In this document: piece by piece, positions 12,601 to 20,836 of the stretch
Numbering within the stretch: the stretch's first letter is position 1
Layout: each line of letters opens with the position of its first letter
DNA from: Polaromonas sp.
GTDB lineage: Bacteria; Pseudomonadota; Gammaproteobacteria; Burkholderiales; Burkholderiaceae_C
Assembly (NCBI GenBank): GCA_030654695.1
Contig: JAURWY010000009.1
Location: 1 to 64,000, forward strand
DNA: 64,000 bases
Direction of reading: 5' to 3'
The notes under the pieces: model-generated
Told to the model about the DNA's origin: nothing
Databases searched by the model: none
Seen by the model: only the letters and a program-made list of their open reading frames with translations
Translations under genes and position numbers: made by a program

Positions 12601-12677
12601 CTGCCCGTAGCTCAGTTGGATAGAGCATCAGCCTTCTAAGCTGAGGGTCGGGGGTTCGATCCCCTCCGGGCAGACCA
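12601..12677 (+). tRNA. tRNA-Arg (TCT), integration target
   Basis: The 77-nt cloverleaf has acceptor CTGCCCG pairing with CGGGCAG, anticodon loop CTTCTAA (anticodon TCT) and encoded CCA at 12675-12677. Its 3' part from the anticodon loop on (12633-12677) is duplicated at 20788-20832 as the right attachment site. The intact gene is kept at the left end, so tRNA function survives integration. Confidence 0.96.
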
Positions 12678-12681
12678 ATAG
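12633..12681 (+). repeat. attL core (49-bp direct repeat)
   Basis: It covers the tRNA-Arg 3' half from the anticodon loop plus four bases (ATAG-side flank) beyond CCA. It is identical to 20788-20836 over 49 bp, with mismatches at both edges (12632 C versus A, 12682 C versus A). Confidence 0.95.
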
Positions 12682-12724
12682 CAGCAACGATTCGGCGCTA
12701 CAGAAAAAGTAGCACCGGACCTTC

Positions 12725-12743
12725 GGGGTAACGCCGGGGTAAC
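12725..12743 (+). repeat. Left arm repeat, paired GGGGTAAC motifs
   Basis: GGGGTAACGCCGGGGTAAC consists of two GGGGTAAC units 11 bp apart. The same 19-bp pattern with one change occurs in the integrase promoter at 20638-20656. A degraded copy lies outside attR (about 20880-20895). Paired motifs one helical turn apart near both ends suggest integrase arm-type binding sites. Confidence 0.6.
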
Positions 12744-12910
12744 AATCAAACTCTCGTAGCGTCAAAACCACACACCAGAACAAGCTGCCGCATTTGAATT
12801 GCGGAATGCTTTGCTGCGCTAACGGCGCTGGTGCAGAACTGCTCTTGAAACTCCTTTACAGACCCATACGAAACACGCTTTGTGTTGTCAGGGGAATGTG
12901 AAGGAATACC

Positions 12911-13111
12911 GTGGACAAGCAAACTAACGACCCGCTTCGGAATGAAGTTGAGTCGGCGCAATTCTTAGGCATCAAGCCCACCACCCTGCAAGTCTGGCGT
13001 TCGACAAAACGTTACCCGCTGGCCTTTGTGAAGGTCGGTCGTTTGGTGCGCTACCGCCAGTCGGCACTGGACGCCTTTGTTCAATTGCGCACACAAGGTA
13101 TCGCGCAATGA
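12911..13111 (+). CDS. Helix-turn-helix excisionase-like protein (GTG start)
   Basis: The 66-residue product has a MerR/excisionase-type helix-turn-helix (SAQFLGIKPTTLQVWRSTKRYP), followed by the VGRLVRYRQSALDAFV wing-helix typical of HTH_17 domain proteins. The GTG at 12911 is the only sensible start. As first gene of the element it may act as excisionase or as activator of the downstream operon. It overlaps the next gene by four bases. Confidence 0.75.
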   Translation: MDKQTNDPLRNEVESAQFLGIKPTTLQVWRSTKRYPLAFVKVGRLVRYRQSALDAFVQLRTQGIAQ

Positions 13112-13383
13112 GCGCCCATGAAAAAGCCGCCGGGGTGCTGGACACACCCACGACGGCTTCTAAAAATCACTACACACCCATTGTCGCTTCTGGCGAGATC
13201 AACAGCAAGACTTATGCAACCCTGAAAGCGAACTTTGCTTTGCTGGGTCACGTCCTGCAACACAACCGCCGAGCCGACGACGGTCGCCACACCTACATCA
13301 TTGAGCGCTGGGGCCAAGCGCGCTACTTCACCCATCTGCATGACGTAACGGCGTTTTTGACTCAGATCGGCGGTGCGAAATGA
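13108..13383 (+). CDS. Hypothetical small protein of the element
   Basis: The 91-residue protein has a mixed alpha/beta pattern and a Tyr-rich C-terminal half (RHTYIIERWGQARYFTHLHDV). No family is recognised. ATGA overlaps on both sides place it in the replication operon between the HTH gene and the primase. Confidence 0.5.
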   Translation: MSAHEKAAGVLDTPTTASKNHYTPIVASGEINSKTYATLKANFALLGHVLQHNRRADDGRHTYIIERWGQARYFTHLHDVTAFLTQIGGAK

Positions 13384-13619
13384 AAGCCATTCAACTAGAA
13401 GTTACCTGCCGCGAGTGGTGGGGCAAATGCTGGAGCGATTCCCGCCCGTTTGTGGTCGATGCGACTTTGAGCGATGCCCAAGCCCTGCCGAATGCGCCCG
13501 TCTGCATTTACGTACGCACCAAAAACGCTGAGGAGGCAGTCCAACTGCTGCGCCTTGCAGCCGATGCGCTGGAGCGTGAGCCGGAATTATTGAAACAACT
13601 GGAAGGGGTGGAAAAATGA
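13380..13619 (+). CDS. Hypothetical small acidic protein of the element
   Basis: The 79-residue product has a Trp/Cys-rich N-terminal segment (CREWWGKCWSDSRPF) and an acidic amphipathic C-terminal helix. No family is recognised. It overlaps both neighbours by four bases, so it is co-translated with the primase-helicase. Confidence 0.5.
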   Translation: MKAIQLEVTCREWWGKCWSDSRPFVVDATLSDAQALPNAPVCIYVRTKNAEEAVQLLRLAADALEREPELLKQLEGVEK

Positions 13620-18961: not shown

Positions 18962-18990
18962 AACCCAGCATTAAAACCGCTGGGTTTTTT
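18962..18990 (+). terminator. Rho-independent terminator of the capsid/terminase unit
   Basis: AACCCAGC (18962-18969) pairs with GCTGGGTT (18979-18986) around a nine-base loop, followed by a T run to 18990. Confidence 0.88.
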
Positions 18991-19054
18991 GTTGTCTGGT
19001 GCAAGTAGGTTATGTAGGACAAATAGGTTTCAAACCGCCGACCGGCTGAAAGTG

Positions 19055-19465
19055 TCAGCGAATTTTCCTCGGCTTCAAGCAGTACGTGTACAGGCTACGC
19101 AAGCCCTCCAATTTGTAGACTAGCGCTCCTAGATTGCCTTCGCCGTGGCTTTCGTCGGTAACGGTGTATCGGTTGTCTTCTAGCTGCGTCAGCGTCAATT
19201 CCTGCTGCTCCTCCTGCTCCCAGTCGCGCATGAAGGTTTTGAAATCAAGTCCTTCCTTTTTGCTGGGGGCCATTGCTGCTTTGATCGCAACGGCCAATTG
19301 ATTGACTGCGCCGGGTCGGTCGGCTGTGTTGCGCCGGTGGTCGGCGTCGCTCTTATCCCAGACGGCAAACAAATTATCAATTTGACCGTCTACCTTTGCG
19401 CGCTGCTCTGTTTTGAACTTAGCCTTCCAATACTCAGCGGTTTCGGTTGTCGGTTTCTCGCTCAT
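19055..19465 (-). CDS. Hypothetical protein coupled to the integrase
   Basis: The 136-residue acidic helical protein is rich in Glu/Gln (WEQEEQQELTLTQLED) and has no recognised domain. Its start overlaps the integrase stop by ATGA, so it is co-translated with it. In satellites the gene in this position is sometimes a repressor or recombination accessory, but no helix-turn-helix is evident here. Confidence 0.5.
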   Translation of the reverse strand: MSEKPTTETAEYWKAKFKTEQRAKVDGQIDNLFAVWDKSDADHRRNTADRPGAVNQLAVAIKAAMAPSKKEGLDFKTFMRDWEQEEQQELTLTQLEDNRYTVTDESHGEGNLGALVYKLEGLRSLYTYCLKPRKIR

Positions 19466-20625
19466 TTTGTGCCTTCCAAAAACGCTGAGGTGGCGCGTTC
19501 CATTGCGTCGCGTACTGGGTCAACGTCAGCAATTCGCTGGTAGATGGCAGCCGCCTGCATCGACTTGTGCCCTAGCGCCTTCGCATTGATCGCAGTGTTA
19601 GCGCCAGTCCTGACAAGCCATGACCCCATTGTTCGACGAAGGTCGTGAATGCGGAGGTCGGTTAACCCTGAGCGCCGCCGCAGTGTTGCCCATGCGCGCT
19701 TAGGTTCCTGATAGTGTCCTGTCTGGCTTTCGGCGGGAAACACCCACGGCGAGGTTTCACCTATTGCAGCTTTCAGCACCTTGAGCAGCGTTACAGCTTC
19801 GGGGACAAGTGGAATATTCATTTCCTCACCCGCTTTGGCATCGGCGGCAGGAATGCGCCAGATACTGTCTGCAAGGCCAATATCAGCCCACTTCATAGCA
19901 AGCACGTTTGAACGTCGTGCGCCGGTGAGCAGGCACAGCATGAAGAAACTTTTACTCGGTTCTTCTGATTCCTCAAGCGACTGAAAAAAGATGGATAGCT
20001 CTGCCGGTTGCAGATACCGCGTTCTCGACGTTTCAGTGTTCTTTTTGACATGAGCCGCTGGGTTAGAGCCGGTAAAAGTGCCCTCCTTCGCCGCCCAATT
20101 GAAAGCCGCTTTGACCATCGACACGCACCTATTCGCCGTGGTCGGCGTGGTCTTTGAAACCTCTCGGTGCAAGGCGCGAATGTTCTCGACGCTGACTTCT
20201 GAGAGCTTACGCGACCCTATTGCAGCGTCAACGTGCTTGGTGTTGAGCCACTGATATGCCGCGAGGCTCCGAGGCTTCATTGTGGTGTTGCCGAGGTAAT
20301 CGGCCAGCAATTCAGAGAATTTGGTTTCGCCGCGCTTTGCCCGTGCTGGTGCAGCATGACTCAAACCGACAGCGAGATCCGCAATTATCTTTTTAGCCGA
20401 CTCCCGCGCATTAACCGGCGTCAGCTTGTCAGCACTGCCGATGGTGATGCGTTCCAAAGCGCCGCCCTTCTTTCGAGCCAGCACAGCGTAAGTCTTAACC
20501 CCTTTGGCCGTGACCCTGAGATACAGTCCCGGCGTGGCTTCATCACGGTAGTCGTCGCGCTTCCCCGCCGCCGCGTTCGGCAGTTCTTTGATTGCTGTTT
20601 GTGTAAATCTGAATTTCTTGCTCAT
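19462..20625 (-). CDS. Tyrosine recombinase of the tRNA-Arg element
   Basis: The 387-residue integrase is read from ATG 20625, which has AAAGG upstream; the longer frame to 20685 has no support. It has an N-terminal DUF4102-like arm-binding domain (GLYLRVTAKGVKTYAV) and a SAM-like domain (about 100-195). The catalytic residues are Arg237 (TGARRSN), His327 and Arg330 (HDLRRT), His353 (LGH) and Tyr362 (IYQRI). It is intact. It faces inward from attR, the standard place for the recombinase that uses the 3' end of a tRNA gene. GGGGTAAC repeats in its promoter suggest autoregulation. Confidence 0.93.
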   Translation of the reverse strand: MSKKFRFTQTAIKELPNAAAGKRDDYRDEATPGLYLRVTAKGVKTYAVLARKKGGALERITIGSADKLTPVNARESAKKIIADLAVGLSHAAPARAKRGETKFSELLADYLGNTTMKPRSLAAYQWLNTKHVDAAIGSRKLSEVSVENIRALHREVSKTTPTTANRCVSMVKAAFNWAAKEGTFTGSNPAAHVKKNTETSRTRYLQPAELSIFFQSLEESEEPSKSFFMLCLLTGARRSNVLAMKWADIGLADSIWRIPAADAKAGEEMNIPLVPEAVTLLKVLKAAIGETSPWVFPAESQTGHYQEPKRAWATLRRRSGLTDLRIHDLRRTMGSWLVRTGANTAINAKALGHKSMQAAAIYQRIADVDPVRDAMERATSAFLEGTK

Positions 20626-20637
20626 TGCCAACCTTTC

Positions 20638-20656
20638 GGGGTAACACCGGGGTAAC
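20638..20656 (+). repeat. Right arm repeat in the integrase promoter
   Basis: GGGGTAACACCGGGGTAAC differs from the left-arm copy at 12725-12743 by one base and has the same orientation. It lies 13 bp upstream of the integrase start, so occupancy would block integrase expression. Confidence 0.6.
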
Positions 20657-20787
20657 AGTTTTTGTAAAACTTGGTGAAGTTTCAATGTTACCCATAAAGG
20701 TTGGACGATAGTTAACTATATGATTTATATAGGGTTATAAAGGTAAATAAAGCTGTGGGTCGGTAGATAAAAAAGGGCTAAAACAGA

Positions 20788-20836
20788 CTTCTAAGCTGAG
20801 GGTCGGGGGTTCGATCCCCTCCGGGCAGACCAATAG
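20788..20836 (+). repeat. attR core (49-bp direct repeat)
   Basis: It is identical to 12633-12681 and contains the tRNA-Arg 3' half without its 5' half, so it is not a functional tRNA gene. Confidence 0.95.

Follow-up and report, generated by a model that had tools for sequence, protein, structure and literature searches.

Phage satellites with capsid genes of their own have been described in several forms. A lone major capsid gene is common in Gram-negative phage-inducible chromosomal islands (PICIs), being the commonest late gene and present in 21 of 29 reference PICIs (PMC10111431), and a small terminase (TerS) is sometimes found in them (PMC6092414, PMC10111431). PmCI172 encodes a homolog of the major capsid protein (MCP), and small heads are made (PMC6092414). 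In SaPIbov5, a single capsid homolog, Ccm, redirects the helper heads (PMC5052747, PMC8569155). The delta domain of Ccm is 44 residues shorter than that of the helper capsid protein (CP) (PMC5052747), and Ccm occupies the pentamers to give a small T=4 shell (PMC8569155). The Vibrio satellite-plasmid PISP TG93 encodes capsid E, a protease, TerS and a MerR-like regulator (PMC13230959). Here we describe a mobile unit at 12633–20836 of a 64,000-nt stretch of Polaromonas sp. DNA (contig JAURWY010000009.1, positions 1 to 64,000; referred to as the window), which is inserted at a tRNA-Arg gene and carries both an MCP and a TerS.

On balance, this 8.2-kb unit is probably an integrative phage satellite of PICI-like type, in which TerS would redirect packaging and the MCP would redirect head assembly. 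The preliminary description of the element had held that TerS is all that known PICIs carry, the capsid-forming ones excepted, and had treated the capsid–TerS pair as novel. The first statement was not supported, in view of the many Gram-negative PICIs with a lone capsid, of SaPIbov5 and of PISP TG93, and the second was too strong: the principle was already in print in the lone-capsid PICIs, the small heads of PmCI172 and the capsid with TerS of the Vibrio satellite-plasmid, which has a protease as well. What is new is a satellite-only MCP clade, and the combination of MCP and TerS in an integrated element of about 8 kb. An integrated element of this size and MCP lineage, or a description from Betaproteobacteria, was not met in the part of the mostly open-access literature that was covered, which is weak evidence of absence.

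Like the Gram-negative PICIs EcCICFT073 and PmCI172, the element has an integrase, an AlpA-like regulator and a primase-type gene, and after the replication genes there is what may be an origin. An integrase with a specific attachment site and a regulator of the AlpA/MerR type are features of Gram-negative PICIs in general; the element has the former, and a putative form of the latter. On the other hand, the element measured 8,155 bp against 10–20 kb for Gram-negative PICIs (PMC10111431), and it did not have the PICI order int – alpA – pri – late genes, as its integrase gene is at the far end and convergent with the late genes. An order of int, primase and MCP in one direction was seen in the related loci L017, L044 and L047, and also in L097 (primase by eye). 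Since the published gene order and size did not apply, we named the element PICI-like rather than PICI. The elements studied in 2018 all came from Gammaproteobacteria (PMC6092414), and were compared here by description.

The MCP resembles Ccm of SaPIbov5 in being a single HK97-fold capsid homolog with a shortened delta region, as judged against the sampled phages and with an uncertain choice of start codon. SaPIbov5, however, is packaged from a cos site by the helper terminase, whereas this element has its own TerS; and co-assembly with the helper CP, which is proven for Ccm, is a possibility for the present capsid. P4-like satellites have Psu/Sid-type capsid factors and a P4 primase; none of these appeared in the general family scans, and no search was aimed at them. 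PISP TG93 is similar in having capsid and small terminase, with no portal or large terminase (TerL) named in the available text, but it is a plasmid without a detected integrase and has a PF03864 capsid and a maturation protease (PMC13230959), whereas the present element is integrated, has a PF05065 capsid and gave no protease. Capsid-forming PICIs (cfPICIs) also have their own PF05065-type capsid, but of the portal, protease, adaptor and terminases of cfPICIs and cf-PISP TG54 (PMC13230959) only TerS was found here. PICMIs are described as having no capsid-remodelling gene (PMC10803314), whereas an MCP is present in this element.

The capsid identity of the MCP was indicated by matches to PF05065 (3.8e-15) and phrog_10 (1.6e-13). 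A profile of its six-member clade matched the solved structures of the phiXacJX1 MCP (9lbm; 2.3e-32) and HK97 gp5 (3qpr; 4e-23). The predicted model was of modest confidence (mean pLDDT 63.9, pTM 0.57, 7 aligned sequences). Foldseek with this model gave D3 prohead I as the best match (E 1.1e-15), and also HK97 prohead I (8fqk; TM by target 0.69–0.71). A helix at residues 2–47 was followed by an order of strands and helices that we interpret as the E-loop, the spine helix and the P/A domains. The long N-terminal helix is predicted within a delta region of about 80 residues; the start codon used lies 16 residues inside the open frame. The assignment as an HK97-type capsid protein in the preliminary description was therefore borne out.

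The TerS matched phrog_12559 over profile positions 19–139 of 140. Its nearest phage relative was the TerS of Pseudomonas phage PAJU2 (37.5%, E 9e-14, 71% of the query), and Pfam Terminase_4 did not match it at E 0.1. The small terminase of the preliminary description therefore stood, but the label "P27-like" was loose, the protein being of the PAJU2 type. A sequence search of the PDB gave no match, and a scan of IMG/VR gave no relative.

Other virion genes were looked for with 163 tblastn queries (29 portal, 30 TerL, 39 protease, 25 tape-measure, 15 major-tail and 25 adaptor). None matched in 12501–21000 at E 0.01, while all six query sets matched a prophage locus used as the positive control. 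This agreed with the earlier statement that the capsid and TerS are the only virion-type genes. The remnant search took in ten of the eleven MCP elements described below (L019 was left out), and a 54-residue portal match in L044 (E 5e-3) was judged to be chance.

Codon-position differences were 0.316/0.239/0.610 between the MCPs of the window and L044 (61.5% identical), and 0.438/0.319/0.604 between the TerS of the window and L086. Such a pattern is that of purifying selection on working proteins.

The features of the element are as follows.

12601–12677, forward strand: tRNA-Arg(tct), the insertion site (ARAGORN)
12633–12681, forward strand: attL, 49-bp exact direct repeat, overlapping the 3' part of the tRNA gene
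12911–13111, forward strand: AlpA/excisionase-like helix-turn-helix (HTH) protein, 66 aa (PF12728, HTH_17, 3.3e-7, over the cut-off)
13108–13619, forward strand: two small open reading frames (ORFs; 91 and 79 aa) with a 4-bp overlap and no informative family
13616–16117, forward strand: primase/helicase-type replication protein, 833 aa (phrog_29234, unknown function, 6.9e-88)
16099–16825, forward strand: three small overlapping ORFs (125, 61 and 61 aa)
16826–17042, no strand: non-coding region, 217 bp
17043–18122, forward strand: MCP, predicted HK97 fold, 359 aa (frame open from 16995)
18319–18783, forward strand: TerS, 154 aa, PAJU2 type (phrog_12559, 1.7e-19)
18788–18940, forward strand: ORF of 50 aa after TerS, unknown
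19055–19465, reverse strand: ORF of 136 aa, unknown, with a 4-bp overlap with the integrase gene
19462–20685, reverse strand: tyrosine integrase, 407 aa (PF00589, 2.1e-24; arm-binding domain PF13356, 2.2e-9)
20788–20836, forward strand: attR, exact copy of the 49-bp repeat

The spacing of the two 49-bp repeats, which are identical as first reported, was 8,155 bp. Of the exact same-strand repeats in the window, just three reach at least 20 nt (20, 49 and 80 nt), and the integrase gene is flanked by the 49-bp pair alone. This gene is intact, as had been claimed. The 80-bp repeat (21295 and 21524), just to the right of the element, consists of two tRNA-Gly copies. The left flank (tRNA-Pro/tRNA-Arg) was matched in all 31 genomes of the genus, own genome included. 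The right flank (20837–21700) was matched in none of 29 loci (L051–L079, about 1.5 kb per side where the contig allows), so that these loci gave no example of an empty site. The element has a G+C content of 0.55, against 0.571 for the remainder of the window.

The seven genes of 12911–16825 overlap by 4 or 19 bp, which confirmed the short overlapping genes of the preliminary description. They are followed by the 217 non-coding bp, the MCP, 196 bp and TerS. The 66-aa protein also matched phrog_66 (excisionase/regulator) at 1e-3, and by its family matches is likely a regulator or Xis. The 833-aa protein had further matches to phrog_19930 (DNA polymerase/primase, 2.8e-16) and phrog_4861 (primase, 5.2e-12), and its RepB_primase score was under the cut-off of that family. 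The 125-aa ORF had a homolog in satellite L047 (29% identity, 119 codons). In the non-coding region there was an AT-rich dyad (16849–16875), and the 13-bp repeat CAGCGCGATGCTG occurred three times exactly (16899, 16949 and 16988), with no further exact copy in the window. The dyad and the three repeats are 0.7–0.9 kb downstream of the primase-type gene. We regard this region as a candidate replication origin; alternatively, it may be a packaging site recognized by TerS. A PADLOC scan of seven small element proteins gave nothing, and a scan for promoters and terminators gave counts near the shuffled mean.

Searches with the MCP gave matches in 13 of 399 genomes of the order, in 17 of 399 of the family and, with a narrower profile at E 1e-25, in 2 of 350 of the class, own genome included in each case. 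A further genome collection gave one relative. MCP matches were found in 18 of 50,697 phage records; the best near-full-length one was about 29% identical, and higher identities (up to 36%) were limited to between one quarter and roughly half of the protein. No relative was found at E 1e-5 in 72,556 plasmid records. From IMG/VR only two contigs of the MCP clade were obtained, and one of these carries the L018 element.

In all, 43 loci were classified by seed-and-extend for portal, TerL, protease, MCP, tail proteins, integrase, primase and TerS. An MCP without portal or TerL was found in eleven distinct elements, namely that of the window and L017, L018, L019, L021, L044, L045, L047, L048, L097 and L100 (L020 is the element of L018). 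Among the phage-labelled rows, portal was present in 23 of 25 and TerL in 22 of 25. The exceptions (L016, L024 and L092) were stretches cut by contig or fetch ends; L016 and L024 are short contigs that were labelled phage by eye and had no portal match. L115 is a complete prophage.

Among the families searched, the MCP was the sole virion-type gene of L017, L044 and L045. A protease was found beside it in L019, L047, L048 and L100. The window and L097 combined MCP with TerS, and the TerS of L097 passed the Pfam Terminase_4 cut-off. L021 had a protease and a TerS match over less than half of the profile, in an apparently broken frame.

Nine elements, one of them without MCP, could be delimited, and their sizes ranged from 7,722 to 9,863 bp. 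Besides the window and L086 (8,178 bp, the one without MCP), they were L018 (7,722 bp; a 76-nt repeat of two tRNA-Gly copies would give 7,939), L045 (7,850 bp), L017 (8,314 bp, by an 18-bp repeat only), L097 (8,685 bp), L100 (8,765 bp, 22-bp repeat), L019 (9,018 bp, circular by a 127-bp terminal repeat) and L048 (9,863 bp).

TerS matches were found in 4 of 399 genomes of the family, own genome included. The strongest full-length second copy (55% identical to that of the window) was in L086, on contig 20 of the host genome (G000). L086 (3430–11689) is a second satellite, inserted at tRNA-Thr and bounded by exact repeats of 82 bp spaced 8,178 bp apart; it has an integrase, a primase-type protein and this TerS, but no MCP. 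In genome G604, fragments of TerS with up to 76% identity to that of the window were found on two contigs (L087 and L088); they are interrupted by stops and are decayed relatives of it.

The MCP tree comprised 36 rows, L020 being dropped as a copy of the L018 element. The window and L044, then L017 and L019, then L018 and L045 formed a six-member clade (support 100/99), which included none of the 25 phage-labelled rows. Insertion sites of its members are tRNA-Arg, tRNA-His, tRNA-Cys, tRNA-Asn and the neighbourhood of an icd-like gene (identified by eye); one further member is a circular contig of 9.0 kb. Their integrases were only distantly alike (24% between the window and L044; the highest about 32–33%). 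The replication protein of the window did not match those of the other members at E 1e-3, while those of L017 and L044 were 55% identical. The distant integrases and the unmatched replication protein indicated that the capsid gene had outlived its surroundings.

The N-terminal region of the satellite MCPs tended to be short. With the longest ORFs, the residues before the mature-domain anchor had a median of 93 in 11 satellites and 143 in 25 phage rows (p 3e-4). With shorter plausible starts for the phages, the phage median was 120 (p 0.003; 0.0036 without L016 and L024). In 9 of the 11 satellites this region had no more than 109 residues. The choice of start codons, the alignment of highly diverged rows and common descent limit this to a supporting trend. 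The MCP frames of L044 (9028–10308), L045 (9351–10688) and L049 (9651–11030) have a hydrophobic, signal-like N-terminal extension, which by eye is similar in the two satellites (L044, L045) and the complete prophage (L049).

Some relatives had further genes. The tRNA-Cys satellite L018 (9213–16982) has, with its MCP, a 772-aa tape-measure-like protein, which is odd for 7.7 kb, and is adjoined at tRNA-Leu by another integrase-bearing element. L019 (1–9145), a contig of plasmid-like make-up, is a candidate satellite-plasmid: by eye, its ORFs include ParA-like and methyltransferase-like ones, and it encodes an MCP of the clade and a prohead protease. Mutually related small HTH-like proteins are encoded directly upstream of the MCP in L017 (9490–9792) and L018 (10763–11158). 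Their weak match to phrog_836, a late transcriptional activator (E 3e-3 to 4e-3), suggests that they may be satellite late regulators.

For the element of the window, the following course is proposed. Infection by a helper would lead to excision of the unit by the integrase together with the AlpA-like protein, and the primase would replicate it from the candidate origin near 16850–17000. TerS would dock on a helper TerL of the PAJU2 type and select satellite DNA. The MCP, with the short delta region as a short internal scaffold, would enter or replace the helper shell to form a small head with room for about 8 kb. The helper would supply portal, terminase motor, maturation protease and tail. 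Our best guess for the helper is a siphophage with an HK97-type head and TerS/TerL of the PAJU2 type.

Several results weigh against this course. The host genome contained no PF04860 portal and no PF03354/PF03237 terminase, so that no helper was identified. Satellites are known from some genomes that hold no possible helper (PMC11389934). The one prophage found in the host genome, an apparent one on contig 19 (L117/L118), combines a PF05136 portal with an ORF in which protease and capsid are fused, but gave no TerS or TerL of the sets used. Its fused capsid gave only a weak match to the MCP set (3e-7) and none to the satellite-clade profile, and its role as helper is unsupported by TerS or TerL type. 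Near the tail genes of this prophage (L117, 4210–5247) there is an ORF that by eye is reverse transcriptase-like, possibly part of a diversity-generating retroelement. The satellite-clade profile did not match the fused capsid gp03 of PAJU2 either, so the helper indicated by TerS may not be the one indicated by the MCP; for the same reason a D3-like helper capsid was rejected, despite D3 prohead being the top fold match.

The wider family gave further opposing points. No end repeats were found for L044 and only 13–14 bp for L047, and L021, L044 and L047 were without convincing end repeats or not delimited. L086 is of much the same size without an MCP, so the size of about 8 kb does not depend on the MCP. 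With the longest starts, L044 and L045 have 149 and 162 residues before the anchor, and the rows are related by descent, so that the length tests overstate their independence. Five other satellite MCPs fell outside the six-member clade, among the phage rows; outer placements are unsure on account of long branches (L024, L100, L016, L048 and L097). A single origin of all 11 capsid-bearing small elements was rejected (p-AU 0.003). Small capsid-bearing elements therefore arose more than once.

That five of the 11 MCPs fall among phages, and that capsid and TerS are phage genes, would also fit a remnant of a deleted prophage. This is very improbable, and the observations argue strongly against it. 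The tblastn search for degraded portal or TerL inside the element found none, the genes are intact and overlapping, and the att repeats are exact. Purifying selection, and a satellite-only MCP clade with different integrases, sites and replicons, speak against decay as well. Broken or partial phage genes were not seen, and neither a complete phage with this MCP nor a relative in the form of a longer, complete prophage was found in the 50,697 phage records, IMG/VR or the MCP tree. The absence of portal and TerL remnants and the satellite-only clade thus upheld the preliminary description in preferring a compact satellite-like element to prophage decay.

The MCP may otherwise act by interference only, poisoning helper head assembly while the DNA is packaged through TerS as multimers in normal helper heads. 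The capsid gene of EcCICFT073 is dispensable for transfer (PMC6092414, PMC10111431), and this PICI is packaged in full-size heads (PMC6092414), which is the ground for such a view. Five times 8.2 kb would about fill a 40-kb head, and the second satellite L086 is equally small without an MCP. The retention of the MCP as the sole virion-type gene found in L017, L044 and L045, and the narrow range of delimited sizes, speak against it, and we consider it quite unlikely. Somewhat less unlikely is a satellite whose shell consists of its own MCP throughout, so that only portal, protease, motor and tails would have to come from the helper. In favour of this, the MCP has its full length and the predicted elements of the HK97 fold, and its clade lies well apart from the sampled phage MCPs, as would suit a protein not meant for co-assembly with a close helper CP. 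On the other hand, Ccm of SaPIbov5 forms no capsids alone (PMC5052747, PMC8569155), and no protease or portal gene to nucleate and mature a shell was found in the element. A shell wholly of the element's own protein, as first proposed, is possible; by analogy, the Ccm precedent would point to a mixed one.

We therefore retain the reading of a PICI-like satellite that redirects both packaging and head assembly. A wider reading is offered tentatively, and is itself doubtful. These elements may form an undescribed lineage of satellites of about 8 kb, whose only constant virion gene is a satellite-specific HK97 capsid, sometimes joined by TerS, a protease or a tape-measure-like protein. They would make very small heads of about T=3, as estimated from genome length, around single genomes, on helper portals and tails. 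Long after its departure from phages, their capsid gene would have gone on evolving within satellites, passing from one integrase, set of replication genes or site to another and even onto a plasmid.

With a shell and a DNA selector, the element illustrates how small the set of virion genes in a satellite can be. For specialists, the points to follow up are the capsid clade confined to satellites and the narrow size class of about 8 kb. The clade can also serve as a marker in searches for elements of this kind, which may escape tools that require a portal and terminases or the gene order of PICIs. If the proposed mechanism is true, these elements would be compact natural tests of size setting by HK97-type capsids and of motor redirection by TerS only, outside the well-studied systems of Staphylococcus and Gammaproteobacteria.

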